From Flavobacteriales bacterium (lineage in GTDB: Bacteria > Bacteroidota > Bacteroidia > Flavobacteriales_C > GCA-002722245): a stretch of 41,255 bases of DNA. Made by a program: the position numbers and the translations under genes. The DNA lies in NCBI GenBank assembly GCA_947444925.1, contig CANFBW010000027.1, positions 1-41,255 of the forward strand, given 5' to 3'. Positions 4,425 to 35,274 of this stretch are shown here, one piece after another (the first letter of the stretch is position 1; each line of letters opens with the position of its first letter). The notes beneath the pieces are model-generated. The model did no database searches. It was not told where the DNA came from and saw only the letters and a list, made by a program, of their open reading frames with translations.

Positions 4425-5918
4425 TTAGCGCGCAGTAACGATAAACTCTATCCTTCTATTTTTGGCGCGCCCCTCGTCTGTTTCGTTGGTGGCTACCGGC
4501 GCTATTTCGCCATAACCTTTATAAGTCAGCCTGGCCGCGGAAATCCCATGCTGCGTGAGATAAGCGCAAACCGATTTCGCTCTATTGAAAGACAGTGTCA
4601 TGTTCGCTTCATTGCTGCCCACAAAATCAGTGTGACCATCTACCTCCAACTCCACTCTGCCATAAAAACCCAAGTACTTCACCACATTGTCGAGTATGGG
4701 TTTAGACTCGTCTTTAATTACGTAAGAATTAAATTCGAAATGAATATTTTCAATCACGTAGCGCTCCCCAATTTTCAAGGCGCCGAGCGCCGAATCTTCT
4801 TTAGTTTTAGGATGCATTTGATCTTTGATCATTTGTAAAATCTCCAGTGAATCCAAGTACTTCACCTGCATCGCTTCGAGCGCCTTCACTCTGGCATCGA
4901 GCAAGGCGTTGAGAGAATCCAAAGCTTCGGTTTTATCCTTCAATTTTTTCAGCGCCGCATCTAAACTGTCCAGTTGTGTTTTTCGTTTCTCCACTTCTTC
5001 AACAGGCACTTGTTTTTTCAAAGTAAAGAGCAACAAAAACTCATGCGTTCCACCTGAATAAGAGGCTATGCCTTGTGTTCCGATTCCATAAGAATAATAA
5101 AAAGTAATCAAGTCAGATGCTTTGTACTTGAATGAAAGCGACATACTTTCCTGAGTGCGGTACAACAAGCCGAAACCAAATTTCGAGTTCCAATCAAGCA
5201 TCGCACCAAGGTCGGCTTGCATAAAAACACCAGGCAAATAGCGCAGTCCCAAACGTGGCTGCAGCGCCAAATTTGATTTCAATGCAAAACGATAAGTGGC
5301 ATAGGCACCATAATGAGGCATCAAACGGTAAGCATTCAATGTTTTGGCAAAGTACGATTGGGCTGAGTTGTTGAAAGCTTGCGAATGAAACAAGCCCAGC
5401 TCCAATTTTTTAAATTGATAATTCAAGCCCAAATCAACTCCCAGCGCAATGGCATTGTTGTTATTGCCCAGCATTAAAATGCCGTCAGAATAATCATCGA
5501 CTTTCACGTTGTTGAAATTCAAGTAAGCATCGTACATCGAGCCTTGAATACCCACTGACAAATAGTGGTCTTTTGCCACCTGCAATTTGTACTTGGCGGC
5601 GAGTGAACTTTTGACATTGCGCAAAAAATTAATTTGGTCGTGGGAAAAATTAAAACCGATACCAAAATTATTTTTCACTGGCATATCCACCGAAACACAG
5701 GAAGTAACAGGCGCGCCTTCAATACCCGTCCATTGCCTTCTGTTGAACAGTGCCAATTGTGTTGACGGCGCATCGCCGGCCTTTGCTGGATTGACGAAAA
5801 AAAGATTATTGAAATACAAATCGGTGGCAGGCACTTGTTGCGCATGCACATCAAGTGCGGTATAAACAAGCAGCACAGTGGCGCAAAGAAAACGATATGT
5901 CAAAAGTGACTTTCTCAT
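4425..5918 (-). CDS. PorP/SprF-family outer-membrane protein fused to a C-terminal OmpA domain
   Basis: The start is the ATG at 5918, in a 4-nt ATGA overlap with the upstream stop; an earlier start would place a long polar stretch before the signal peptide (1-26, ending VHAQ). Residues about 27-303 are a PorP/SprF T9SS membrane domain: the opening YFNNLFFVNPAKAG and RRQWTGI are characteristic, followed by beta-rich barrel segments. Residues 305-375 form a heptad-like coiled coil, and 388-497 an OmpA peptidoglycan-binding domain with GHTDFVGS and NRAKS. The DAP-contacting Asp431 and Arg446 are both kept at the usual 15-residue spacing. PorP/SprF proteins are usually ~300-350 residues without this tail. 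Its position after a type B cargo gene matches the SprB-SprF pairing of Flavobacterium, so it probably receives or anchors that cargo at the outer membrane. Confidence 0.9.
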   Translation of the reverse strand: MRKSLLTYRFLCATVLLVYTALDVHAQQVPATDLYFNNLFFVNPAKAGDAPSTQLALFNRRQWTGIEGAPVTSCVSVDMPVKNNFGIGFNFSHDQINFLRNVKSSLAAKYKLQVAKDHYLSVGIQGSMYDAYLNFNNVKVDDYSDGILMLGNNNNAIALGVDLGLNYQFKKLELGLFHSQAFNNSAQSYFAKTLNAYRLMPHYGAYATYRFALKSNLALQPRLGLRYLPGVFMQADLGAMLDWNSKFGFGLLYRTQESMSLSFKYKASDLITFYYSYGIGTQGIASYSGGTHEFLLLFTLKKQVPVEEVEKRKTQLDSLDAALKKLKDKTEALDSLNALLDARVKALEAMQVKYLDSLEILQMIKDQMHPKTKEDSALGALKIGERYVIENIHFEFNSYVIKDESKPILDNVVKYLGFYGRVELEVDGHTDFVGSNEANMTLSFNRAKSVCAYLTQHGISAARLTYKGYGEIAPVATNETDEGRAKNRRIEFIVTAR

Positions 5919-7957
5919 TCTTTTGTGCGTAAAATAGTGATGGGTCCTGTGAGATCGCGTTTCATGCCATCGCATTTAATGACGTAGAAATAACCACCGT
6001 CTGGCAATTCACTGCCACTGTCGTCTTTGCCATTCCAATCATTGTTGTATCCTTTGGCCGAATGAAAAACAGCTTGTCCCCATCGATTGAAAACGATGAC
6101 TCCACAGTCGCTGTATGCGGTGATATTGGCGATGGTCCAATTGTCATTTTTACCATCGTTATTGGGCGTAATTAAATTATTGGGAATTAAATTATAATCC
6201 TTCACCACTGTCACCTGCAAGGGCAGCGTTGTTGTGCAAGAAAATGCATTGCTCGCCGTTACCGAATAATTTCCTGAATTTTCAGGACGAATGTCCACCG
6301 CGCTGCCAAGCCCCAAATTGTCGCCTTGCGGATTGCTCCATACAAAATCAAAATTACCACTTGCCCAAAGCTGTATGGTAGTGCCCAAACTCACCGTTGC
6401 ATCGGCACTGTGTGCAAATACAGGATTGGCATGCACCACTACCTCAGCACTTGCTTTGGCGGAACAATTGTGCACATCAAAAATTATTAATTCATACTTG
6501 GCACTTTCCTTCACATAGATGAATGATTCCGTGGAGGCTGTGCTCCAAATAAAAGTTTTGCCGATGAGCGCACTGCCGTCCAAGCGCAAGCTATCATCTT
6601 GGCACAATTCCAAAGAAGGAGCCGTAATTTCGGCAACTGGCAAGGCATATACAGGCACTACTTTTTTTACGGTATCCGCACAACCTGTTTCACTTTCCAC
6701 CCTGAGGTATACTTCATAATTTCCGGGTGCAGTATAAAGATGTTGGGGATTTGTACCAACCTCGCCATTGCCATCGTTGAAGTCCCATATGCGAGAACGC
6801 AAAGTATTCGCTGAATGTGACACATCGGCAAAAGTGGTTTTGTTGCCAAAACACACTTCTGAAAAAGTAAAATCAGCGTGTGGTTGTTCGAGCACGCTGT
6901 GCTTTCTTACAACGGAATCCTTGCAACCGAAAGAATTTACTGCAATGAGCTTCACGTTGTAATCGCCTGCATTGCTAAACGCATAGTTGGGCTCAATTGG
7001 CGTAAGCGTATCACCGTTGTCAAAGTTCCAAAAGTAAGTCACGGTACCAACGGCGTTATAAGTCAAATTAGAAAAAATAGCATTTTGATTTTCACAAGAT
7101 GGATTCGACAAAAAAGAAGCATTGGGACGCGGATAAACTGAAATCGTTTTTATGGTATCGTGAACGCAGCCTTTGTCAGAAACACAGCGCAAGCCCACCA
7201 ACTCGTGACCAGTAGAAAAATAGCCATACTTGCTTTGCACCCCCGTTCCATCAGCGTATATTTTATCGCCGTTAAAATCCCAATTGTACTTGGCAACAAA
7301 ACCACTGGCGATGGTGACCCGCTCTGTAAAAACAGAAGAATCGCCAAGGCAATTTGAAGCGGAACTAAAATCGGAGACCGGATTGGGAAACACATTCACA
7401 TCACGTTTCACAACTGCAACGCAGCCGTCGGAGGTAATTAACTTAAGTGATACATTGTAAATACCAGGCAGCGCAAAACGGTGCGACACAGCAGTGGAAA
7501 CAGAATCGGACAAGGCAGTTACACCAAAAGTCCATAAATACTTCACCACACTCGCCGTATTGGCATCGCTTGAATCAACAGCATTAACTAAACTTTGATC
7601 GCACAGATCATGCAAAGTGAAATTGGCATTTGGAATCGGCCACACCTGTACCACTTGGTAAGCCGACGCGCTCTCATTATTGATAGTTCGCAGGCGCAAT
7701 CCCACTGCAAAATCACCATGGCCGACAAAGGTTTTAAAAACAAGGGCGCCCGACGCATCGTCAAACTGCCCGTCATTATCGAGGTCCCAGTCATATGCTA
7801 CAATGCTGTCATTGGTAAAATCAAAAGCAGCATTCAAAGACATTTGTGAACTTTCACACACTGCGTTTGAAAAGAAACTGACTGCAGGCGGCAGTGCTTT
7901 CAGCGCAGTAGATGCGAAGAAAAACAAGAGCAGTATGCAGCCTTTTATTTTTATCAT
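5915..7957 (-). CDS. PKD-repeat surface protein with T9SS type B (gliding-motility-type) sorting domain
   Basis: This 680-residue secreted protein has a signal peptide (about 1-22). Five tandem PKD-like domains follow to about residue 440, each with a W-x-F/L-x-D/N-G core (YDWDLDNDG, YNWDFNGD, YFWNFDNGD, IWDFNDGNG). Next comes a region with a further Ig-like segment, then a C-terminal type B sorting domain beginning LITPNNDGKNDNW and containing VFNRWG and WNGKDDSG. Type B domains direct export by T9SS and, in Flavobacterium, need a cognate SprF/PorP protein; here such a gene starts inside this gene's stop codon. The start ATG overlaps the stop of the adhesin gene by 4 nt (ATGA), so the three proteins are translationally coupled. 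Probable role: surface adhesin or filament. No catalytic domain seen. Confidence 0.9.
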   Translation of the reverse strand: MIKIKGCILLLFFFASTALKALPPAVSFFSNAVCESSQMSLNAAFDFTNDSIVAYDWDLDNDGQFDDASGALVFKTFVGHGDFAVGLRLRTINNESASAYQVVQVWPIPNANFTLHDLCDQSLVNAVDSSDANTASVVKYLWTFGVTALSDSVSTAVSHRFALPGIYNVSLKLITSDGCVAVVKRDVNVFPNPVSDFSSASNCLGDSSVFTERVTIASGFVAKYNWDFNGDKIYADGTGVQSKYGYFSTGHELVGLRCVSDKGCVHDTIKTISVYPRPNASFLSNPSCENQNAIFSNLTYNAVGTVTYFWNFDNGDTLTPIEPNYAFSNAGDYNVKLIAVNSFGCKDSVVRKHSVLEQPHADFTFSEVCFGNKTTFADVSHSANTLRSRIWDFNDGNGEVGTNPQHLYTAPGNYEVYLRVESETGCADTVKKVVPVYALPVAEITAPSLELCQDDSLRLDGSALIGKTFIWSTASTESFIYVKESAKYELIIFDVHNCSAKASAEVVVHANPVFAHSADATVSLGTTIQLWASGNFDFVWSNPQGDNLGLGSAVDIRPENSGNYSVTASNAFSCTTTLPLQVTVVKDYNLIPNNLITPNNDGKNDNWTIANITAYSDCGVIVFNRWGQAVFHSAKGYNNDWNGKDDSGSELPDGGYFYVIKCDGMKRDLTGPITILRTKE

Positions 7958-10900
7958 TGTTGTATACTAAAACTGCGTGCGACATTAATGTTGTCTCCAC
8001 ATATTTTTAAAAAATAACTTCCTTCTGCGAGCTGTTGAACGGGCAAAATACAATTTAGTGTTAGACCATTCATCACTTCATTTTGTTGTAAAAGCATTTT
8101 TCCAACGACGTCAAATATTTGAAGTTGCAGCGTCGCATTATTACACAACGCTGTGCCGTTAATGCGCACCTGAAGCTGGGTGCTGGCAGGCGACGGAAAT
8201 ACAAGACAAGTCAATGGTGACAACTCCTCTACCCCAACACCGCCAATAGTTACCGTCTTGGTAATGGTATCACTATTGCATGAATTTCGCGCAATCAACG
8301 TCAAATCAAAATTGCCCGCATGCGGATAAACATGAATGGGTGATGCCAAAGTGCTGTGCTGAATTTGAGCGCCGAAATTCCAATCAAAGCTGTTTGCGTG
8401 AAGCGATGTGTTGTTCACCGTCATCACCTTTCCGGCAACAAAAGGAGTAAAATCAGCCTTTGCCAATTCATAGGTATAGGGTACCACAACTGTGCTATCG
8501 AAGGCGCAATTGTTTTGGTCTTTCAATTGTATACTATGCGCACCACCGGTGAAACCTGTCATTGGTTGCACAGCAGAGTGCATTGTGCCATCAACAAATA
8601 GTTTGTATGCAGGTATACCACCTGCCAGTATCAACGAAAGCCGAGCGCTATTGTCGTTTTTGCACTGCACCCCAAGTACGCTGCTCACTGAAAAATGCAA
8701 TGGAGCTGGCTCATTCACAAATACCGTCTGTGTTTTCACACAACCCAAGTTGTCTTTTACTTTAATGGTATAGGCACCCTTGCTCAAATACTGAAAAGTG
8801 GAGGTCGACCCATAGGTATTGTACAGCGCATAACTGTATGCCGCACTTCCGCCAGAAGCTTGTATGGAAATAGAGCCATCTTTTTTTCCAAAACACGATA
8901 GATCCTGGGGCAATACTTGATCAATACGCAAAGCTGCAGCAGGCTCCGACAAAAGTACGTTCGTTGAATCAACACAATTGTTATTGTCTTTGGCATAAAA
9001 GCGATAGGTACCTGCAAACAAAGTATCAAATTCAGAAGGATAATCAAAATGCAGCATTGTTCCCTTTGCATATTTAATAACGCCACTTCCTCCTGTTCCT
9101 TGTAATTTAATACTGCCCAATGAATCTCCTTTACACGCAATTTTATCAAATACAGTAGCACTTAAATGCACTTTTGAATTGGGTTCGAGCACTGTCACAC
9201 CTAATGAAGCACTGCAACCACGAGCATCTTTCAACGATGCAAGGTAGTAGGCAGCAGGAAGTCCAGAAAACTGTGCTGTAGGAAAATAAGAAGCTCCTCC
9301 ATTCACTGAAAACACATAGTTTCCATTTCCTCCAGAAGCATTTATTTTCAAAGCACCATCACTTAAACCCAAACAAGAAACATTGCTTTTGTCAACACCT
9401 ATCAATAAAGGAGTTGGCTCCGACATTTTGTATTTCAACACCATTAAACAATTGTGACTGTCTACAATTTTAATTTCATAACTACCTGCTCCCATGTTTC
9501 CAAAATGCCCACTGTCTTGAAGAACGTCATAGTCACCATTGATTTGCGTATTTTGAAAGCGGTATGGACTCGTACCACCAAAGCCTGAAAAATCAACGGT
9601 ACCAGTCTTGGTTCCACTGCAAATTGGCAAAAGCATACTTGCCGATTGCACTCCTAAGGCAGAAGGCTCCCCAATGACTATGTCTTTTTCGGTAACACAA
9701 TTTCTAAAATCTACCACACGCACATGATGCACTCCGCCAGAGAGCGATTCAAACTTTGGCGTCAATTGGTAGTCGCCAAAATCTAAAGAATAAAAATACG
9801 GCACCAATCCTGCTGCGGCTTTCAAACTGATCACACCATTTGATGCACCGCTACAATCCACGTCGTTGCCACCTGTTAGCAAATGCGGATTGGAATGCAC
9901 TATTAAATTTTTACGCACCGAGTCGGCACAATTTTTATCACTCAGCACCTTCAATTGCACATTGTATGTGCGCGCGCCAACATAAAGATGTTTGGGATTT
10001 ACATCTGAATGAACAATTGTACCATCGTTTAAATTCCAAGTATGATCAATGCTCCCCGATGATATTGAACTCACACTTTGAAACAAGGCCTCGGTACTAT
10101 CACAAATATCACTAACAACGAAATTCGCTGTGGGCGATGGATTGACGGTGATCGTTTTATTCATACTTGCCACACAGCCTTTATTTGAAGTAGCGCTAAC
10201 ACCAACCGTATAGGTGTCAGTGGATACATATTTGTGTTTCGGACTTTTAGCAGCACTGCCCGACCCGTCACCGAAATTCCATGCATAAGCAATGGTGCCC
10301 AAGTGTATGCTACTGCTGTTGATCGGCGCCAGTGAATCGGCAAAACAAAGATCTGAGAAAACTACATTGAGCAGCGGTAGTGGATCAACCACAACGGCTT
10401 GCTTCAAGGTGTCCTTACAGCCATAAGGACTCGTTCCAATCATTGAAACCTGAAAAGTTCCATCAACAGAATAAATATAATTTGGTGACTTTAAAGTACT
10501 CACTGCTGCGGCATTTGCAAAATCCCAATGATAGGTACTGATCGTGTCTTGATCAATGGTGGATGTATTCGTAAACAAGGTCATCGTACCCAAGCATATT
10601 TCATTTGAAGAAAAAGAAAGTTTAGGAATGGCATTCACCTTCAATAATACTGTAGAAGAATTCACCGTACCGGCAGGATTCGTCACTACACAACGGTATT
10701 GAAAACTATCCGCTAAGGCAACTGACGCAATGCGCAAAGTGTCATCAGTAGCACCAGCGATATTGACGTTGTTGTGTTGCCATTGATAGCTGATCGGGTT
10801 GGTTCCGTTAGTGCGCACCGCAAAAAGTGCCGAGCGACTTTGACAAACAGTTGCTGCGAGAGGCTGCGTGCTAAAAGTAATGGCTATGGGATTCACTGTA

Positions 10901-12240
10901 AGTGCAATCACTTTAACATCAGACAAAGGACCACCTGGACCAGTGCTGCCGCCATCGTTGGCAGTGATGGTCACGGCATCGACCCCCACATAATCATCAA
11001 TACTTTTGTATACCAAATTATTCAATGCATTGTTTACTACCGTTTTTCTTCCTTTAAAACAAATGGTTGCATCAACTGATCCATCGCCCGTGGTAAAACG
11101 CAACCCGACTATAGTTGACAGCGAAACAAAACCATGAACAGCACTCACACAAACCGCCATTGAATCCAAAGCGATGTCTTGATCGGCAACAGCAATGCCG
11201 GAAACCGTCAAATTACTGTTTTCAAAAACAACCTGCGCCCCCGGCACCGTCAGCACTGGCGAGTCATTCACGTTGGTGAGCGTGATGGTGAGTGTTGCAT
11301 TTTTAAACAGTGCAGGAGTACCATTGTCGGTTGCACGCAACGTCAAAGTAAAAACGGGCGTGCTTTCAAAATCGACCGACGATGAATTGTTGACCGTAAC
11401 TTGTCCGCTCACCGCATTAATAGCAAATGCAGATCCTGTGTTGCCTGACACAATGCTGTATGCAAGCGTTTGTCCTGCATCAATGTCACTTCCTGAGCAG
11501 GTAATCACCGCACTTGCATTGGCTTTATTTTCAGTAATGGTTACCGACGCATTGTTGTAAGCGGGAATTTCATTGACATTGGTCAAATTAATGGTCAACG
11601 TTGCGTCTTTGTACAAAGAAGGAGTTCCGTTATCAGTTGCTCTCACCACCAAGGCAAACGTCGTGATTGTTTCATAATTCAATGCCACGGAGCTATTGAC
11701 AGTCACCTTACCGTTGGCGGCATTCACTGCAAAGGCAGAGGAAGTGTTTCCTGATACAATAGCATAAGTCAATGTTTGTCCAGCGTCCACATCACTTCCT
11801 GCAAAGGTAGTCACCAAAGTGGTAGCAATAGTATTTTCGGCCAACGAGATGGTGTTGTTCGCAAAACTTGGTGTTTCATTTACATTGTTTACAGAAATGG
11901 TAAATACTTTTTCGAAGATGCCGCCATTGCCGTCACTGGTTCTAATTCTTACAGAATAGGATGTTTTTAGCTCATAATTGAAAACGACCGCATTTTTTAA
12001 TGCCGTGCCTAAAATCGAGAACGATGCGTTGTCTGTGCTTCCCATACCAGCAACCAAAGAAAAACTTTGAATATCGGCGATATCAACATCGCTTGCGCTT
12101 AGATTTCCAATAGTACTAGCGATCGCTGTGTTCTCGGCCTGCACAATAGCAGTAAGGGATATATTGCTCGGAGCAGTGTTCGCTGCCCAAACGAAAATAT
12201 TGAACAAAACTGTAAAAATGAATACTAAGCCATTTTTCAT
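7954..12240 (-). CDS. Giant SprB-like adhesin: cadherin, Ig, PKD and SprB repeats with T9SS type A domain
   Basis: 1428 residues with a signal peptide (1-20, ending VWAA). Domains in order: three cadherin-like repeats (about 22-120, 121-223, 224-326; the second and third are close copies, both with DAGQTL and RATDNGTP), a Bap/cadherin-like domain (330-450), an Ig-like domain with YQWQHNN (455-540), three PKD domains (540-790), about six SprB-type repeats (790-1215; pattern CxGxxDGxxxxxxxGG...YxxxxxDxxGC), one more PKD, and a type A T9SS sorting domain (about 1343-1428, FPSPA...GSYFLKI). It is exported by T9SS and presumably displayed on the surface. It is the first gene of a three-gene coupled unit ending in a PorP-OmpA protein; 43 nt separate it from the DUF2279 gene. 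No enzyme domain was seen. Confidence 0.9.
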   Translation of the reverse strand: MKNGLVFIFTVLFNIFVWAANTAPSNISLTAIVQAENTAIASTIGNLSASDVDIADIQSFSLVAGMGSTDNASFSILGTALKNAVVFNYELKTSYSVRIRTSDGNGGIFEKVFTISVNNVNETPSFANNTISLAENTIATTLVTTFAGSDVDAGQTLTYAIVSGNTSSAFAVNAANGKVTVNSSVALNYETITTFALVVRATDNGTPSLYKDATLTINLTNVNEIPAYNNASVTITENKANASAVITCSGSDIDAGQTLAYSIVSGNTGSAFAINAVSGQVTVNNSSSVDFESTPVFTLTLRATDNGTPALFKNATLTITLTNVNDSPVLTVPGAQVVFENSNLTVSGIAVADQDIALDSMAVCVSAVHGFVSLSTIVGLRFTTGDGSVDATICFKGRKTVVNNALNNLVYKSIDDYVGVDAVTITANDGGSTGPGGPLSDVKVIALTVNPIAITFSTQPLAATVCQSRSALFAVRTNGTNPISYQWQHNNVNIAGATDDTLRIASVALADSFQYRCVVTNPAGTVNSSTVLLKVNAIPKLSFSSNEICLGTMTLFTNTSTIDQDTISTYHWDFANAAAVSTLKSPNYIYSVDGTFQVSMIGTSPYGCKDTLKQAVVVDPLPLLNVVFSDLCFADSLAPINSSSIHLGTIAYAWNFGDGSGSAAKSPKHKYVSTDTYTVGVSATSNKGCVASMNKTITVNPSPTANFVVSDICDSTEALFQSVSSISSGSIDHTWNLNDGTIVHSDVNPKHLYVGARTYNVQLKVLSDKNCADSVRKNLIVHSNPHLLTGGNDVDCSGASNGVISLKAAAGLVPYFYSLDFGDYQLTPKFESLSGGVHHVRVVDFRNCVTEKDIVIGEPSALGVQSASMLLPICSGTKTGTVDFSGFGGTSPYRFQNTQINGDYDVLQDSGHFGNMGAGSYEIKIVDSHNCLMVLKYKMSEPTPLLIGVDKSNVSCLGLSDGALKINASGGNGNYVFSVNGGASYFPTAQFSGLPAAYYLASLKDARGCSASLGVTVLEPNSKVHLSATVFDKIACKGDSLGSIKLQGTGGSGVIKYAKGTMLHFDYPSEFDTLFAGTYRFYAKDNNNCVDSTNVLLSEPAAALRIDQVLPQDLSCFGKKDGSISIQASGGSAAYSYALYNTYGSTSTFQYLSKGAYTIKVKDNLGCVKTQTVFVNEPAPLHFSVSSVLGVQCKNDNSARLSLILAGGIPAYKLFVDGTMHSAVQPMTGFTGGAHSIQLKDQNNCAFDSTVVVPYTYELAKADFTPFVAGKVMTVNNTSLHANSFDWNFGAQIQHSTLASPIHVYPHAGNFDLTLIARNSCNSDTITKTVTIGGVGVEELSPLTCLVFPSPASTQLQVRINGTALCNNATLQLQIFDVVGKMLLQQNEVMNGLTLNCILPVQQLAEGSYFLKICGDNINVARSFSIQQ

Positions 12241-28658: not shown

Positions 28659-30902
28659 CTAGCGCACAACATTGTAGCGAATTTCAATCAATTGAAATGT
28701 AACGCCATCGGATTTTTTAAGAAGAATGGTGTTTTTGTTTTCACCGCTTTTTCCTGTTAAATCAATAGAAAACTGAATATGCAAATAATGGTTTGCATCA
28801 ATATCGCCATCGTTGTATTTCAATTGCACACAGTCACAGTCGGCGCCCACACGCTCGGCCGACCAAGCGTGCACACCCGTGTTTTTCAAAAACAAATGCT
28901 GATCCTCAACGGCGCTTAACTCACCTAAATTCACAACAATTTTTTTGAAATCGTCGCGGTAAGGAAGTACTTTTTTGTCTTTGGCCTTCAACTGCACCGA
29001 CACCACCTCAATTCTTCTTTCCATGGCAGCAAAGGGGTGGTAAATAGAGTTGCGCACATCGTAGTAATCGTCGCTTACACCTTCCTGCGACTTGTATTCA
29101 CCATTGGGCTGCTTCACAATCGTGAGGGGCGCTGCTCCGCTGTCAGAGCTGAAATAAGGCAGATACAAACCATTCTCGTATGCCTTTAAATAATTGATGA
29201 AGGAAGAAATACGGCGCAAAGACAAATTGACGTTGTAATCGGATTTGGTAAGCGGACTCGCAAAGCCTCTAACCACTACTTCAGCCGAATAGCCCTGCTG
29301 CAAGTAGTACAGTAAATCTTTGGCGAATTTCTCTAAATTGACCATTCCCGCATCCACATAGTCTTCAAAAAAACGATCAATGTCTTGCAATGCCATCGCT
29401 TGATCTTCGCCTTGGAGATCGGCCGGATATTTCTTTTCATAGTCGGACAACAACCTTTTGTAAGCCTGATAAGTGGCGGCATAATTCAAGCGCGTGAGTG
29501 TATCGCGACAACGCGGATTGGGCTCATCGTTGTGAAAATAGAGCACCAGCGGAAGGTCTACATAATCTTCTTCCATCACAAAAGGCAAGGTATCAAGAGC
29601 TTGTTCTTTTGCTTCTGCCATTTTTTCAAAGCGGTAAACATCGGTGCAACAAATGGCATCAGCATCATCAGACAAAGTCCCCACTCGCGTTGAACTCAAA
29701 AAACCACTCTGCGTTTTATCCATCACAAAACTAAGGTCGGCACGACTTGAATTCAACGGAATACCAACGTTTACAGGCTCTTGTAAGGCAGTGAGCGCGC
29801 CTTTACTCCTAAAAATATCAAAGTCACCCAAACCAGCATACCAATTTGAACTAAAGTACAGCGCCGTATCGGCAGTATTGTAGAAAGGCGTAATTTCATC
29901 GCCAGGACTATTTACTTTAGCGCCCAAATTTTTAGGCGCGAGGTATTTTCCTTCGTTGTATTCAGTATACCATAAATCCATACCTCCACTACCACCGCTG
30001 CGGTTTGATGAAAACAACAAAAACTCTTTTCCGGCAATGTTCAACCAAAAAGGATGTGTTGTACTGCAATCAGAAATAGCTATTTCAAGCGGCAGCGCAA
30101 GAGGCGTCGTCCAGCCACTGTCGCTCCACTGCGATTCCATCAGTCGACAAGACTTCATTGTCGCACAGCGGCTAAAAATAAATTTACGGCGATCACTGCT
30201 AAAAGTACCATTGCCCGTATTTTCTTTGGCAACATTAATTTTTGTCAGCGCTGTATCTTCACTCCACCAGCCCGCTTTTCCCTGCGCAGTGTACAACTGC
30301 ACGATGTATTCTTTATCCTTGTTTTCGCGCAAAGCCGAATAATACATCAACGAATCGTTGTAAGGCAAAGCCGAAAATTCAGCGTTGGTCGAATTGATGC
30401 CCGCGAGATTGTACACATTAAATTTCAGTGTGTCGCGCAGCAAAAGCGGAATGGTTTTTTCATTTTTAATTTCCTGCTGCGCCCTGCGGTACATCAGCGA
30501 TGATCTGTCTTTTGCTTCTTTCACAAAGCGAGCCATGAGCGCAGCACTTTGATCATAATGCTCCAAGCATTTGTCAATCATTGCCATGTGGTAAAGCGCA
30601 GCCGAATAGTCTTTCTTTTGAGGATTTTCTATCAGTTTTTGAAAAAGAGGATAGGCTTTTTTATAGGCATTGTAGTTCAAATAACTTTCTGCCAACTTAA
30701 ACAATAGCTCATCGCCAGTGCTGTCGATCGCGTATGCCTTTTCGTAATACACTGCCGCGCCAAAATAGTCGCCATCGGCATAGGCCTCATCTCCGTATTT
30801 GGTGAACTGTTTTTTTTGAGCAAGAGCCGAAATGCACAAAACAAAAAGCAGCACAAAACTGACTTTGCATTTGGCATTTACAACTGTGATCATTTTCATC
30901 AT
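28659..30902 (-). CDS. PorE-like protein: TPR, PD40 beta-propeller and divergent OmpA-like domain
   Basis: 747 residues from the ATG at 30902, which overlaps the PorP stop in ATGA. Signal peptide about 1-28; TPR region with paired helices (about 30-155); PD40/WD40-like propeller (about 160-430, e.g. FLLFSSNRSGGSGGMDLWY); OmpA-like region (about 440-620) with GFASPLTKSDYN and LSLRRISS. The canonical Asp of the TDxxG peptidoglycan site is Ser549; the Arg (564) is kept. The C-terminus (about 650-747) resembles a DUF1573-like Ig fold (VNLGELSAVEDQHLFLKNTG). TPR-PD40-OmpA proteins such as PorE attach T9SS parts to the cell wall; here it follows a cargo and a PorP gene, so a cargo-specific role is likely. 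Confidence 0.85.
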   Translation of the reverse strand: MMKMITVVNAKCKVSFVLLFVLCISALAQKKQFTKYGDEAYADGDYFGAAVYYEKAYAIDSTGDELLFKLAESYLNYNAYKKAYPLFQKLIENPQKKDYSAALYHMAMIDKCLEHYDQSAALMARFVKEAKDRSSLMYRRAQQEIKNEKTIPLLLRDTLKFNVYNLAGINSTNAEFSALPYNDSLMYYSALRENKDKEYIVQLYTAQGKAGWWSEDTALTKINVAKENTGNGTFSSDRRKFIFSRCATMKSCRLMESQWSDSGWTTPLALPLEIAISDCSTTHPFWLNIAGKEFLLFSSNRSGGSGGMDLWYTEYNEGKYLAPKNLGAKVNSPGDEITPFYNTADTALYFSSNWYAGLGDFDIFRSKGALTALQEPVNVGIPLNSSRADLSFVMDKTQSGFLSSTRVGTLSDDADAICCTDVYRFEKMAEAKEQALDTLPFVMEEDYVDLPLVLYFHNDEPNPRCRDTLTRLNYAATYQAYKRLLSDYEKKYPADLQGEDQAMALQDIDRFFEDYVDAGMVNLEKFAKDLLYYLQQGYSAEVVVRGFASPLTKSDYNVNLSLRRISSFINYLKAYENGLYLPYFSSDSGAAPLTIVKQPNGEYKSQEGVSDDYYDVRNSIYHPFAAMERRIEVVSVQLKAKDKKVLPYRDDFKKIVVNLGELSAVEDQHLFLKNTGVHAWSAERVGADCDCVQLKYNDGDIDANHYLHIQFSIDLTGKSGENKNTILLKKSDGVTFQLIEIRYNVVR

Positions 30903-31975
30903 AAAAATTTGGGACAAACTTTATAGTGTGTTCTTTCAACGGCCTTTCTCCAAATATAAATCACTGCGAGTTCCAATCCGCCCCTATACTGAGAAGCGGG
31001 AACAAGATTTGAAAAATTGATATCGTAGCTGGCCCCGAAAGTCCAGTTGTTATACATCAATCCTGCAAACAAGTTTCCAGCGTCACTGCTTCGGCCCCAG
31101 GCACCCCCTAAAATTTTCCATTCGTTGAAAGGCTCTGTTATGAAATCATACTGTACCATACTTCCAATTAAATACTCAGCATACTTTCCTTGAAAACTCA
31201 TCAATACTTTTGGCAACAGCGACCATTTTGGCGCCAAACGGTATTCAATGCCCATTTCAATATTGTAACGCCTGTCTAGACGAACGTTCATGTTTTGCAA
31301 AAACGATTCGCGGGGCTGTGTGATATTATAGACACTAGCGCCCAACATCAACTTTCCTTTGTCGTTCATCTGCCAATTCCATTTCGCGCCGGCATTCAAA
31401 TTAAAATAAGTGGTACTGAGCTTGTCGAAATTTTCTATTGACCCTATACTGGGATCGTAGTAAAATCCATTGTACTGGTTGTCGTATTTCAAATCTTTAG
31501 TAGCGAATTGTTTATTGCTGAAACCAGCCTGAGCGCCAAATACAAAATTTGACCGAGCACTCGTTGTAACGCGATACGACGATCCAACATTACAAAGAGT
31601 ACTTATGAAATGTGAGTCACCCGTGTTGTCATTCTGAAAAGAAAAAAACACGCCCAAACCTTTCACTTTTAAAAAATCGTGGGCATCTATCGCGCCTGCA
31701 AAAGTTTGATATGGAAGAGTGACTGAAGCCCATTGCCGGCGCTCATTGCCCACAAAACGGTAGTCGCCATTAAAGTCACCAATGTGTGCCGGATTGTAAT
31801 TGGCCGGTGCAAAGAAAAACTGTGAATAGTGAATGTCTTGCCCAAATACGCTTGCTGCAAAAAACAACAGCAGTATTTGCAATTTAAGGTTCAATAGTAA
31901 AGGTTCAAAGGCTGCAAATTTCTCATTGCAACGCGACACAAAACTTTGAACTTTAAACTTTGAACTTTGAACCAT
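30899..31975 (-). CDS. PorP/SprF-family T9SS outer-membrane protein
   Basis: 358 residues, with the PorP/SprF signature after the signal peptide: YSQFFFAPANYNPAHIG and RRQWASV, then beta-barrel segments. No OmpA domain. The N-terminus is odd: MVQSSKFKVQSF and LNLKLQ are translated from a heptamer repeat (see the repeat entry), so the first ~25 residues before the hydrophobic core look like inserted DNA. A TTG just before NLKLQILLLFFAASVFGQ is an alternative start giving an ordinary signal peptide. The gene follows the type B cargo gene by 2 nt and overlaps the PorE-like gene by 4 nt. By analogy with SprF it should be the cognate membrane partner of the adjacent cargo. Confidence 0.88.
   Translation of the reverse strand: MVQSSKFKVQSFVSRCNEKFAAFEPLLLNLKLQILLLFFAASVFGQDIHYSQFFFAPANYNPAHIGDFNGDYRFVGNERRQWASVTLPYQTFAGAIDAHDFLKVKGLGVFFSFQNDNTGDSHFISTLCNVGSSYRVTTSARSNFVFGAQAGFSNKQFATKDLKYDNQYNGFYYDPSIGSIENFDKLSTTYFNLNAGAKWNWQMNDKGKLMLGASVYNITQPRESFLQNMNVRLDRRYNIEMGIEYRLAPKWSLLPKVLMSFQGKYAEYLIGSMVQYDFITEPFNEWKILGGAWGRSSDAGNLFAGLMYNNWTFGASYDINFSNLVPASQYRGGLELAVIYIWRKAVERTHYKVCPKFL
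31942..31972 (-). repeat. Heptamer tandem repeat in the start of the PorP gene
   Basis: Four AACTTTR units (31942-31948, 31949-31955, 31956-31962, 31963-31969) plus a partial unit, read as CAAAGTT on the minus strand. They encode the first 11 residues (SSKFKVQSF). A degraded relative of the unit occurs at 31880-31905. Such heptamers are known in Bacteroidota genomes as scattered low-complexity repeats. Confidence 0.75.
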
Positions 31976-31977
31976 CG

Positions 31978-34900
31978 TTATCTCATTACTGTTATATTCC
32001 CTTTTTCAAAATACGAATTGTTCGCGCCACACTTCACCGTGAGATAATACACAAAAACAGCGGGGTCGGCACTTTGATTTTTATAGTCTCCACTCCAGCC
32101 TAAATGTTGATCGCGCGTTTCAAATACCATTTCACCCCAGCGGTCGTAAATCGTAAAATACAGTTCCGTAATATTGTTGCCGCGCACAAAAAGAACATCG
32201 TTTTTTGCATCGGCATTTGGCGTAAAAATATTGGGTACATACACATCGTTTTTGCCACATTTACCATCGTATACAAACACCGTAATGGAATCAGTGCTGA
32301 CACAAGAATTTACAGCATTTGTTTTCAAACTCACCGTATAGGTCGTGCTCACAAGGGGACTTGCAACAGGGTCGTGCAAGGTATCGCCACTCAAGCTTGC
32401 TGCAGGTTTCCACAGCACCGCCAAATCAATAGGCGCAACGTGCAATTGTGTGCTGTGTCCTTTTAAAATGGTATCAGCATCAGCACTGGTGGTCAAAAAT
32501 CCTGTAACGGGAATAACTGTCAATGCAAACAAAAATGAATCTTGACAAACTGCTTTGTTCGCGAGCAATACGTAGTTTGTGCTTTTAGCGGGTGAAGCTA
32601 TTGGATTGGCAATGGCAGAATCTGACAATCCGTTTGCAGGGCGCCATAAATAGGACGAATAATTTGGATTTTCAGCGAAACCAATCTGCACCGACTCGCC
32701 TGCACAAATGGTATCTGAAGCCAGCACCTGTGTTTTGTAACTTTGCACGTGAATGGTTTTTGAAATGCTGTCCACCACATTGCAAGCCGTAGGGTCACTG
32801 ATGCGCAATTTCACCACAAAATCTCCCGCTGTTGCATATTTGTGCGTGGGTTCAAATTGCGTGGCCGATGTACCATCGCCAAAGTCCCAATAAAAAGAAG
32901 TATTCTGTTGAAGCAAACTGGTGTTTTTGAAAGTATAGTTTTGTGTGGCACAGGCATCACTGGCTTTAAAATCGGCAACTACATTGGGTATTAAAAAGTC
33001 CATTTTAAAAACACCAATATTGCAATTGTTTGATTTGTTTTCCGGAGACACGGCATTCGCTGGCGCGATCACCATGTCGCTGTGCCCTCCGCAACCAGCG
33101 CACATTGCTTGATATATTTTTCCTTTTTTATCGAAACGACTGGTACCGCCGTCAACATGTTCCGAACTCAAATCGCCTCCAAAAAAACTGGCGTAAGACA
33201 ATTGTGACGCATCATCTTCGAGCACCATAATGTAAAAATCACTCCCCAAGGTATTCGGCTGCATGGCGTCAGGCGTTACTTCCATGCCATCGCTTCCTTG
33301 TGCGCCATTGTATTTCGCGCCCCCTTTTAAATAATTAGGCAAACCGTCAAAGCCTGCTTTATTGGAACCCCAACCCGTTAAATAGACTTTATTACACAGA
33401 TCGACCATGAAAGCAGTTGGACTAATATTCACTCGTCCATCGCCCGATCCAAAGGTGGTTGACCAAATAAAATCCGACAAATCGTTTTTCAATTTACTCA
33501 CAAATTGTCCGCTGTGCACCGAATGGTATTTTGCGTTTTTAACCAAGGTGCTGTCCATACTTTCACTTTGACCATACACGTAAATATTTTGCAACTTGTC
33601 GATTTTCACAAAATATACTTGATCGTAAGCGGCTGTTCCAAAGTAAGTCAGCGCATTCAGCAAAGAACCATCGTTACTAATTTTAGCAATAAAGCCGTCA
33701 GACGGATTGCCCTGATACATGGGATACAAGGCATTGAGCGTTGTGGCTAAATCAGGCGATGTTGTTCCGCCGGCAAGCACTAAGTTTTCTTGTGCATCAA
33801 GCACAATGGAATACGCCGCATCATTTTCATTTCCACCCAAGTACGTAGCCCAAATTTGCGTACTCAAATCAGCGCTAAAATGCGCCACCAAAGCATCACT
33901 CAAAAGATTTTTAGTGTTTTGGAATCCGCTTACATTTGCAATATCACTGCTACTGGTGGATGAAGCAATGAACACATTGTCGTCCTTATCAACAATCACC
34001 TCACCGCGCATTTGATCGGCATAATTGTAATTCAAGCGCTCATTCAATCCGTCGTTTTTTGTTCCTCCGTAATAGGTAGAAGCCAAAAGTTTACTGCCAT
34101 CAGCACTCAACTTTGACAAAATGATATCGGAACCAAAAAAATAATTCACAAAAATACCATTGGCAAGATTGGATATATTTCCACCTCCAAAAGAAGTATC
34201 AAGTGCATTTTTTGTAACCGGAAAATCATCAGAACCTGTAGTGCCATAAATCAACAATTCCCCTTTGCTGTTCACCACCAAACTGTGTGGTACCTCACAA
34301 AACCAACCGCCTAAATAAGTAGAATAAATGCGCTTGGTGCCGCTGGTATCGTACTTCGTGATGGCGATGTCGGGAGATCCAAAGATTTCTCCATTGACAT
34401 TGTAAAATTGATTTGTGCCATTCCAAGTACTATCGAAAGCCCCCAAACTAGTGGGATAACCCATCCAAAAAACAGTGCTTCCTGCGTACAAAAACCCATC
34501 TTCATCATAGGTTGCGGTATAGCCAAAATTATCGGCCGTTGAACCTGAGTACGTAGAAAAAATAAGCAAGGGATCAATCACCAAATCAAAGGCTTTGTTG
34601 TACGACTCGCCCACCGTAAAGGAAACAACACCGTTGTGCAAAACAAAATGACAGGGCACACTTACTTTTTTACCAGCAATCACTTGATAAGCAATGGGCA
34701 ACTGTTCAACAACATCGGAAAAAGAAAGTTGTATTTTCAATTCATTGTGCTCTAAACACATTTTACGAACACCATTGTACTTCAATTTAATATCACTTAC
34801 CGCAGCCCCAGCATGCACAATAAAATCGTATTTCGAACGCTCGTTTTCTTCGTAAAATAAAAAGTCGATGCCTGGATACAATCCGTTGTAACGCACCTTT

Positions 34901-35274
34901 TCAAAAGTCGACACGTTGCTCGTCCATTTCGAAGTATCATTGCCAATAAAAAAATTCAATTTTTCTGCGCTGGCCTGAACACCTTTTTTGACAGCGTTGC
35001 GATCGCTGTTTACAAATTGCATTTCATAGGCGTGCAAACGAATTCTATTGTTTGCTGTATCACTTTCACCGCGCTTGGGCGCATGTCCGTGCTCAGCAAA
35101 ATTTTTAGCATGCGCCAAGTGATAGGTCAGCTTGCCTTCCTCAAAAAACACAGTGCCTCCCGGAATGTTTTTTCTAAACAAAATATTTTCTTTCCACTGT
35201 CCCTTATTCGGAATGAACTGAGCAGAAGAAAAATGATACAACAAGCAAATGATGACTATAAAGGCATTGCGCAT
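31978..35274 (-). CDS. Large SBBP-propeller/PKD surface protein with T9SS type B sorting domain
   Basis: 1098 residues. Signal peptide 1-18 (ending SSAQ); an N-terminal domain of the DUF7948 kind starting FIPNKGQWKENILF (about 19-235); SBBP-type beta-propeller repeats (about 240-740: segments such as FSTYSGSTADNFGYT, IYSTYLGG, ATYLGGNENDAAYS); a PKD domain near 770-840 (FYWDFGDGTSATQFEPTHKY); a further Ig-like region; and a type B sorting domain (about 1010-1098: NDVYVPNIFTPNADAKND, IYDRWGEMVFE). It is a T9SS cargo presumably attached to the surface. The PorP/SprF gene follows after 2 nt and the PorE-like gene after that, so this is one operon of cargo plus its secretion partners. A promoter abuts the ATG. 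Confidence 0.88.
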   Translation of the reverse strand: MRNAFIVIICLLYHFSSAQFIPNKGQWKENILFRKNIPGGTVFFEEGKLTYHLAHAKNFAEHGHAPKRGESDTANNRIRLHAYEMQFVNSDRNAVKKGVQASAEKLNFFIGNDTSKWTSNVSTFEKVRYNGLYPGIDFLFYEENERSKYDFIVHAGAAVSDIKLKYNGVRKMCLEHNELKIQLSFSDVVEQLPIAYQVIAGKKVSVPCHFVLHNGVVSFTVGESYNKAFDLVIDPLLIFSTYSGSTADNFGYTATYDEDGFLYAGSTVFWMGYPTSLGAFDSTWNGTNQFYNVNGEIFGSPDIAITKYDTSGTKRIYSTYLGGWFCEVPHSLVVNSKGELLIYGTTGSDDFPVTKNALDTSFGGGNISNLANGIFVNYFFGSDIILSKLSADGSKLLASTYYGGTKNDGLNERLNYNYADQMRGEVIVDKDDNVFIASSTSSSDIANVSGFQNTKNLLSDALVAHFSADLSTQIWATYLGGNENDAAYSIVLDAQENLVLAGGTTSPDLATTLNALYPMYQGNPSDGFIAKISNDGSLLNALTYFGTAAYDQVYFVKIDKLQNIYVYGQSESMDSTLVKNAKYHSVHSGQFVSKLKNDLSDFIWSTTFGSGDGRVNISPTAFMVDLCNKVYLTGWGSNKAGFDGLPNYLKGGAKYNGAQGSDGMEVTPDAMQPNTLGSDFYIMVLEDDASQLSYASFFGGDLSSEHVDGGTSRFDKKGKIYQAMCAGCGGHSDMVIAPANAVSPENKSNNCNIGVFKMDFLIPNVVADFKASDACATQNYTFKNTSLLQQNTSFYWDFGDGTSATQFEPTHKYATAGDFVVKLRISDPTACNVVDSISKTIHVQSYKTQVLASDTICAGESVQIGFAENPNYSSYLWRPANGLSDSAIANPIASPAKSTNYVLLANKAVCQDSFLFALTVIPVTGFLTTSADADTILKGHSTQLHVAPIDLAVLWKPAASLSGDTLHDPVASPLVSTTYTVSLKTNAVNSCVSTDSITVFVYDGKCGKNDVYVPNIFTPNADAKNDVLFVRGNNITELYFTIYDRWGEMVFETRDQHLGWSGDYKNQSADPAVFVYYLTVKCGANNSYFEKGNITVMR

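Follow-up and report, generated by a model that had tools for sequence, protein, structure and literature searches.

A PorP/SprF carrier barrel and an OmpA peptidoglycan-binding domain in one chain, a probable wall anchor for a type B cargo in a Flavobacteriales bacterium

In the window (the whole stretch of 41,255 nucleotides analysed, from the Flavobacteriales contig CANFBW010000027.1), we found a minus-strand gene (4425..5918) which encodes, in a single chain of 497 aa, a PorP/SprF carrier barrel, a coiled coil, and an OmpA peptidoglycan-binding domain, as determined from the ORF, Pfam, TIGRFAM, and AlphaFold2. Carrier and wall anchor, which are normally two proteins, are merged here in one chain. 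The fusion is probably a one-chain wall anchor of the PorP-PorE type, by which a cargo exported through SprA would be captured by the barrel and fixed by the helix and the OmpA domain. This bears on how Bacteroidota hold type B surface proteins and on what separates the static ones from those that glide. Pull-downs, imaging, and gene neighbourhood are the basis of the PorP-PorE wall-anchor model. That carrier and anchor occur naturally in one chain, and that the wall-binding domain has been replaced repeatedly, lends the model independent evolutionary support, and the fusion reduces it to a test on one protein.

The fusion gene and its predicted fold

The fusion gene is a single uninterrupted frame. 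Its start was placed at the ATG at 5918, which both the signal peptide and the four bases shared with the cargo gene favour over an alternative ATG at 5975 (516 aa). The signal peptide (residues 1-26; 5841..5918, minus strand) was read from the sequence and ends VHA/QQ; residue 25 is the first of the PorP/SprF match, and AQQ does not vary. PorP_SprF (PF11751) matches residues 25-297 (E 7e-46, 157 bits against a cut-off of 22.3), TIGR03519 matches the protein with 186 bits (cut-off 90.6), and OmpA (PF00691) matches residues 394-488 (E 3e-20, 72.8 bits, cut-off 27.2). By every feature tested (profiles, barrel, and type B neighbour), the protein belongs to the PorP/SprF family.

The AlphaFold2 model, computed from an alignment of 53 sequences (the window protein and its relatives), has a mean pLDDT of 88.5 and places 14 strands between residues 54 and 299. 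PF11751, the model, and fold matches agree on a 14-stranded FadL-family barrel as the PorP/SprF domain (residues 27-299; 5022..5840, minus strand). Against T9SS translocon structures, the barrel reaches a VIA Z of 25.8 to 8gl6_F and 25.1 to 6h3i_F, chain F in both being what we take to be PorV, and 26.1 to FadL. The charged, helical linker that follows was originally predicted as a heptad-like coiled coil of about 70 residues; the model gives a single helix of 63 residues with a heptad repeat (residues 306-368; 4815..5003, minus strand; pLDDT about 80-94), and the heptad pattern of its core exceeds that of shuffled sequences in all four orthologues (p 0.002-0.03). The joint at residues 369-385 is of low confidence, such that the relative placement of the domains is not fixed by the model. 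Beyond it, residues 386-496 (4431..4763, minus strand) form the OmpA-type peptidoglycan-binding domain, assigned by PF00691 and a confident predicted fold, which aligns to 3td5, 5u1h, and PorE 6top, including OmpA domains solved with peptidoglycan pieces. The full-chain prediction therefore bears out the order first proposed, with a barrel standing before the coil and all three parts in one polypeptide.

In Porphyromonas gingivalis PorE, Asp576, Asn584, and Arg591 contact peptidoglycan and hold diaminopimelate (PMC7192894). As the equivalents of these PorE residues, Asp431, Asn439, and Arg446 of the fusion (4581..4628, minus strand) form the predicted diaminopimelate site, with residues of the same kinds at a common +8/+15 spacing. 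Asp431 and Arg446 had been placed at this site from the outset; Asn439 completes it, and none of the three varies within the genus.

Three further genomes from the genus (the MAGs nzgw150 and nzgw151 and a MAG labelled Chryseobacterium gleum) carry full-length orthologues, with 70, 53, and 52% identity end to end. Silent sites are saturated among them, non-synonymous divergence is 0.17-0.37 in the barrel and OmpA domain, and the linker is less constrained (0.38-0.89). The barrel and the OmpA domain are both under purifying selection. As PorP and PorE genes frequently lie side by side, a false join through an assembly error or frameshift is conceivable, but we regard it as extremely improbable: three independent orthologues align over the entire length, protein changes are low in both domains despite saturated synonymous changes, and the overlapping start is kept in the relatives. 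Such an origin of the fusion, which the original prediction had named as its possible undoing, can be discarded.

The operon and the recurrence of tailed carriers

Directly upstream of the fusion gene lies a gene with a type B C-terminal domain (5915..7957, minus strand), encoding the putative cognate cargo, a protein of 680 aa with PKD repeats (CHU_C, E 1e-23, and PKD in Pfam; TIGR04131 over its cut-off). The stop of the cargo gene and the start of the fusion gene share the four bases ATGA (5915..5918, minus strand), and the identical overlap is found in the three related genomes. Within ten genomes of the family, a full-length cargo orthologue is found in exactly the four fusion-bearing genomes, with no full-length match in the other six. 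A further operon member upstream (7954..12240, minus strand; 1428 aa) carries cadherin, PKD, and SprB repeats and a type A-like C-terminal sorting domain by Pfam, and the order is kept in the same three relatives. The window genome encodes SprA, GldK, GldL, GldM, and a GldJ-like protein, and therefore holds parts of both the secretion machinery and the track. It has 51 CHU_C matches against 15 PorP matches, which indicates that most type B-like cargos either have a carrier in common with others or take a different route.

Barrel-only carriers are the rule, as had been assumed: of about 150 PorP frames listed across 22 genomes from the class, only 14 reach 460 aa or more. Our first phylum-wide search, run with a strict cut-off and three candidates scored per genome, returned the window only, which is not evidence of absence, and a scan of genome contigs found the full fusion in close relatives only. 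Ten PorP-OmpA fusions in at least five genera were nonetheless found, six of them beyond the genus in other families (G562, G465, G486, G520, G028, and G010). The notion of a rare one-off is thereby rejected, and with it the uniqueness implied by the original prediction. Whether this domain order always follows a type B cargo gene had also been asked; nine of the ten fusions do so directly, and for the exception (G028) a small type B gene lies three genes upstream. The G028 fusion (L161:7980-9593, plus strand) has thrombospondin type 3 repeats as a linker in place of a coiled coil and is placed by the tree apart from the tailed clade.

More frequent than the OmpA tail is a SPOR tail after a helical linker, carried by many PorPs of the same barrel clade. 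These PorP-coil-SPOR proteins likewise stand directly after a type B cargo gene and have no adjacent porE, and differ from the fusion in that SPOR replaces OmpA. When ten tails were examined on their own, SPOR scored over the Pfam cut-off in eight, L164 and L170 being the exceptions; the assignment rests on Pfam, since a fold search with a SPOR-tailed model listed only barrels and no SPOR fold. TPR repeats, which recall the TPR part of PorE, lie between the barrel and the tail end in L037, L164, and L168 (with SPOR in L037 and L168). At L102:6888-8356 (plus strand), a SPOR-tailed PorP is split over two overlapping frames, probably by a frameshift. Our search of openly available journal papers yielded no description of a PorP/SprF protein with SPOR or a fused OmpA domain, although sequences of both kinds will exist in databases.

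Barrel-OmpA and coil-barrel tethers are common elsewhere, and the fusion could be a structural tether between outer membrane and wall, comparable to E. coli OmpA or Veillonella OmpM, with no role in secretion and a neighbouring cargo that is incidental. The tail gives strong OmpA-C fold matches, and the Veillonella OmpM1 barrel is among the Foldseek matches of a SPOR-tailed relative. We nevertheless consider a purely structural role unlikely: the barrel is that of a PorP/SprF carrier and not the 8-strand barrel of OmpA, the 4-bp overlap is accompanied by strict co-occurrence with a type B cargo, and the great majority of the fusions follow a type B gene. OmpA/OprF porins and OmpM do resemble the fusion in joining an outer-membrane barrel and a peptidoglycan-binding domain in one chain, but they have other barrels and are without a secreted cargo partner. 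In Veillonella OmpM, the wall-binding part is an N-terminal SLH domain.

Exclusion of porE and exchange of tail domains

A tail that takes over the function of PorE ought to make a porE gene dispensable for its carrier. Among carriers with a type B gene upstream, a PorE-like gene follows none of 19 with a tail and 18 of 34 without one (p 4e-5); in a sample chosen without regard to similarity to the fusion, it follows 0/12 and 9/18, respectively (p 0.004). These counts are not fully independent and the p values are optimistic, because the tailed carriers mostly belong to one barrel clade. The window itself holds both designs, the fused one at 4.4-8.0 kb and a split one at 28.7-35.3 kb. The split locus comprises, all on the minus strand, a second type B cargo of 1098 aa with DUF7948 (31978..35274), a barrel-only PorP/SprF ending ...VCPKFL (30899..31975), and a separate PorE-like protein of 752 aa (28659..30917), whose N-terminal scaffold matches the PorE and CHU_0125 families. 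The OmpA region of this PorE-like protein is too degenerate for Pfam, and a DUF1573-like stretch stands at its end. The fusion cannot itself be classed as a PorE: the TPR and propeller scaffold is absent, and NF052230 matches its C-terminal part only, with 77.9 bits, far below the cut-off of 600.

In a tree built from the barrels only, the tailed carriers group together (99/99), mostly in one clade, with SPOR and OmpA tails interleaved. A single OmpA-tailed clade is rejected (AU p 0.0001, and 0.0004 with a second sample), and with it one common origin of the OmpA tails. A tree of the OmpA domains scatters the tails among PorE-like proteins, where one origin gives p 0.058; the domain is short and this tree is not decisive. 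Interleaving and the rejected clade thus indicate that wall-binding domains of two unrelated folds were exchanged on one lineage, a change between SPOR and OmpA that is as expected if only wall binding was selected.

The ligand Asp is replaced in two of the ten fusions, by Cys in G465 and by Ser in G010. Wall binding is therefore not required in every relative, and these two tails may bind weakly or have another role. The loss would also suit a tail that mainly docks to a periplasmic protein, such as the GldK/N ring, or aids assembly, as would the PorP-PorK interaction cited in PMC9143113. The invariance of Asp, Asn, and Arg in the genus speaks against such docking, and the swap with SPOR, another kind of domain that also binds peptidoglycan, suggests that the wall is the shared target; docking as the main function therefore appears improbable. 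A carrier tied directly to peptidoglycan, as the original prediction held, is the mechanism best supported by the fold, the conserved ligand site, the type B operon, and the exclusion of porE.

Proposed wall anchoring and the ends of carrier tails

We propose that the fusion is a T9SS carrier with an integral wall anchor, serving the 680-aa type B cargo encoded just upstream. In the outer membrane, the barrel would take the cargo from the SprA translocon via the C-terminal domain of the cargo and retain it on the cell surface. The periplasmic C-terminus would continue as a helix of roughly 95 Angstrom (taking 1.5 Angstrom for each residue), which probably forms a coil with further copies of the fusion, and the OmpA domain would grip the diaminopimelate of peptidoglycan. 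With the carrier fixed to the wall, the carrier-cargo pair would be static and not towed on the gliding track. Type B cargos remain bound to PorP/SprF-like carriers (PMC9143113), PorE binds both PorP and peptidoglycan and so links PorP to the wall (PMC9143113, PMC7192894), and, in contrast to the moving SprB, a cargo whose gene accompanies that of a PorE homologue is static (PMC12618676). By analogy, the cargo of the fusion is best read as a static, adhesin-like protein. Of the surface filament whose locking to the wall had been suggested as a possibility, the tether is the best-supported part; the cargo itself is a PKD-repeat protein.

That a static type B protein is wall-anchored via PorP and a separate PorE has been proposed previously (PMC9143113, PMC12618676). 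The fusion resembles the P. gingivalis PorP-PorE-PG1035 system and the PorE-linked type B operons of Flavobacterium johnsoniae in having a cargo, a PorP-like carrier, and an OmpA-type domain in one unit (PMC9143113, PMC12618676), and static wall anchoring is proposed for all. PorE in those systems is a lipoprotein in its own right, in which TPR, propeller, and other domains are present, whereas the fusion keeps only the wall-binding domain and joins it to the carrier through a helix. It is also comparable to the SprF-SprB gliding pair, in which a PorP/SprF barrel is likewise paired with a type B cargo and the periplasmic C-tail decides the coupling (PMC12635249). SprF moves because its short Cys-x-Cys tail is bonded to GldK (PMC12635249); the fusion, in contrast, has a tail of 200 residues with a wall-binding domain. 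A sequence check of this tail found no Cys-x-Cys motif, which sets the fusion apart from SprF carriers of the gliding type; the sole cysteine of the tail belongs to the OmpA domain and is not kept across the genus.

The ends of barrel-only carriers also differ. All nine sampled barrel-only PorPs with a terminal PRYF or similar sequence (PR[YFL]; L175, L179, L180, L181, L185, L187, L197, L207, and L209) are followed by a PorE-like gene, a pattern noticed after viewing the data, and this end is a possible PorE-docking motif. Other barrel-only PorPs end in Cys-Pro-x-Phe or a near form and lie apart from type B genes (L188-L192, L196, L206, and L208); L196, of the window genome, sits between porU and a gldJ-like gene. 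By analogy with SprF, the cysteine of these ends might pair with GldK. The tail end, this suggests, tells which partner a carrier couples to. We tentatively extend this to a reading that, taken as a whole, we hold at somewhat less than even confidence: the periplasmic PorP/SprF tail would be a swappable address label, sufficient by itself to determine if a type B protein stays in place or moves. A PRYF-type end would recruit a separate PorE, a cysteine end would couple to the moving track, a fused SPOR or OmpA domain would grip the wall directly, and wall-binding tails would have been swapped several times.

Two further PorP-domain proteins of the window genome (L203:7421-9046 and L204:7151-9178, both minus strand) carry a long N-terminal part before the barrel, with one hydrophobic segment and Asn-rich runs, which resembles an anti-sigma factor that spans the membrane once.
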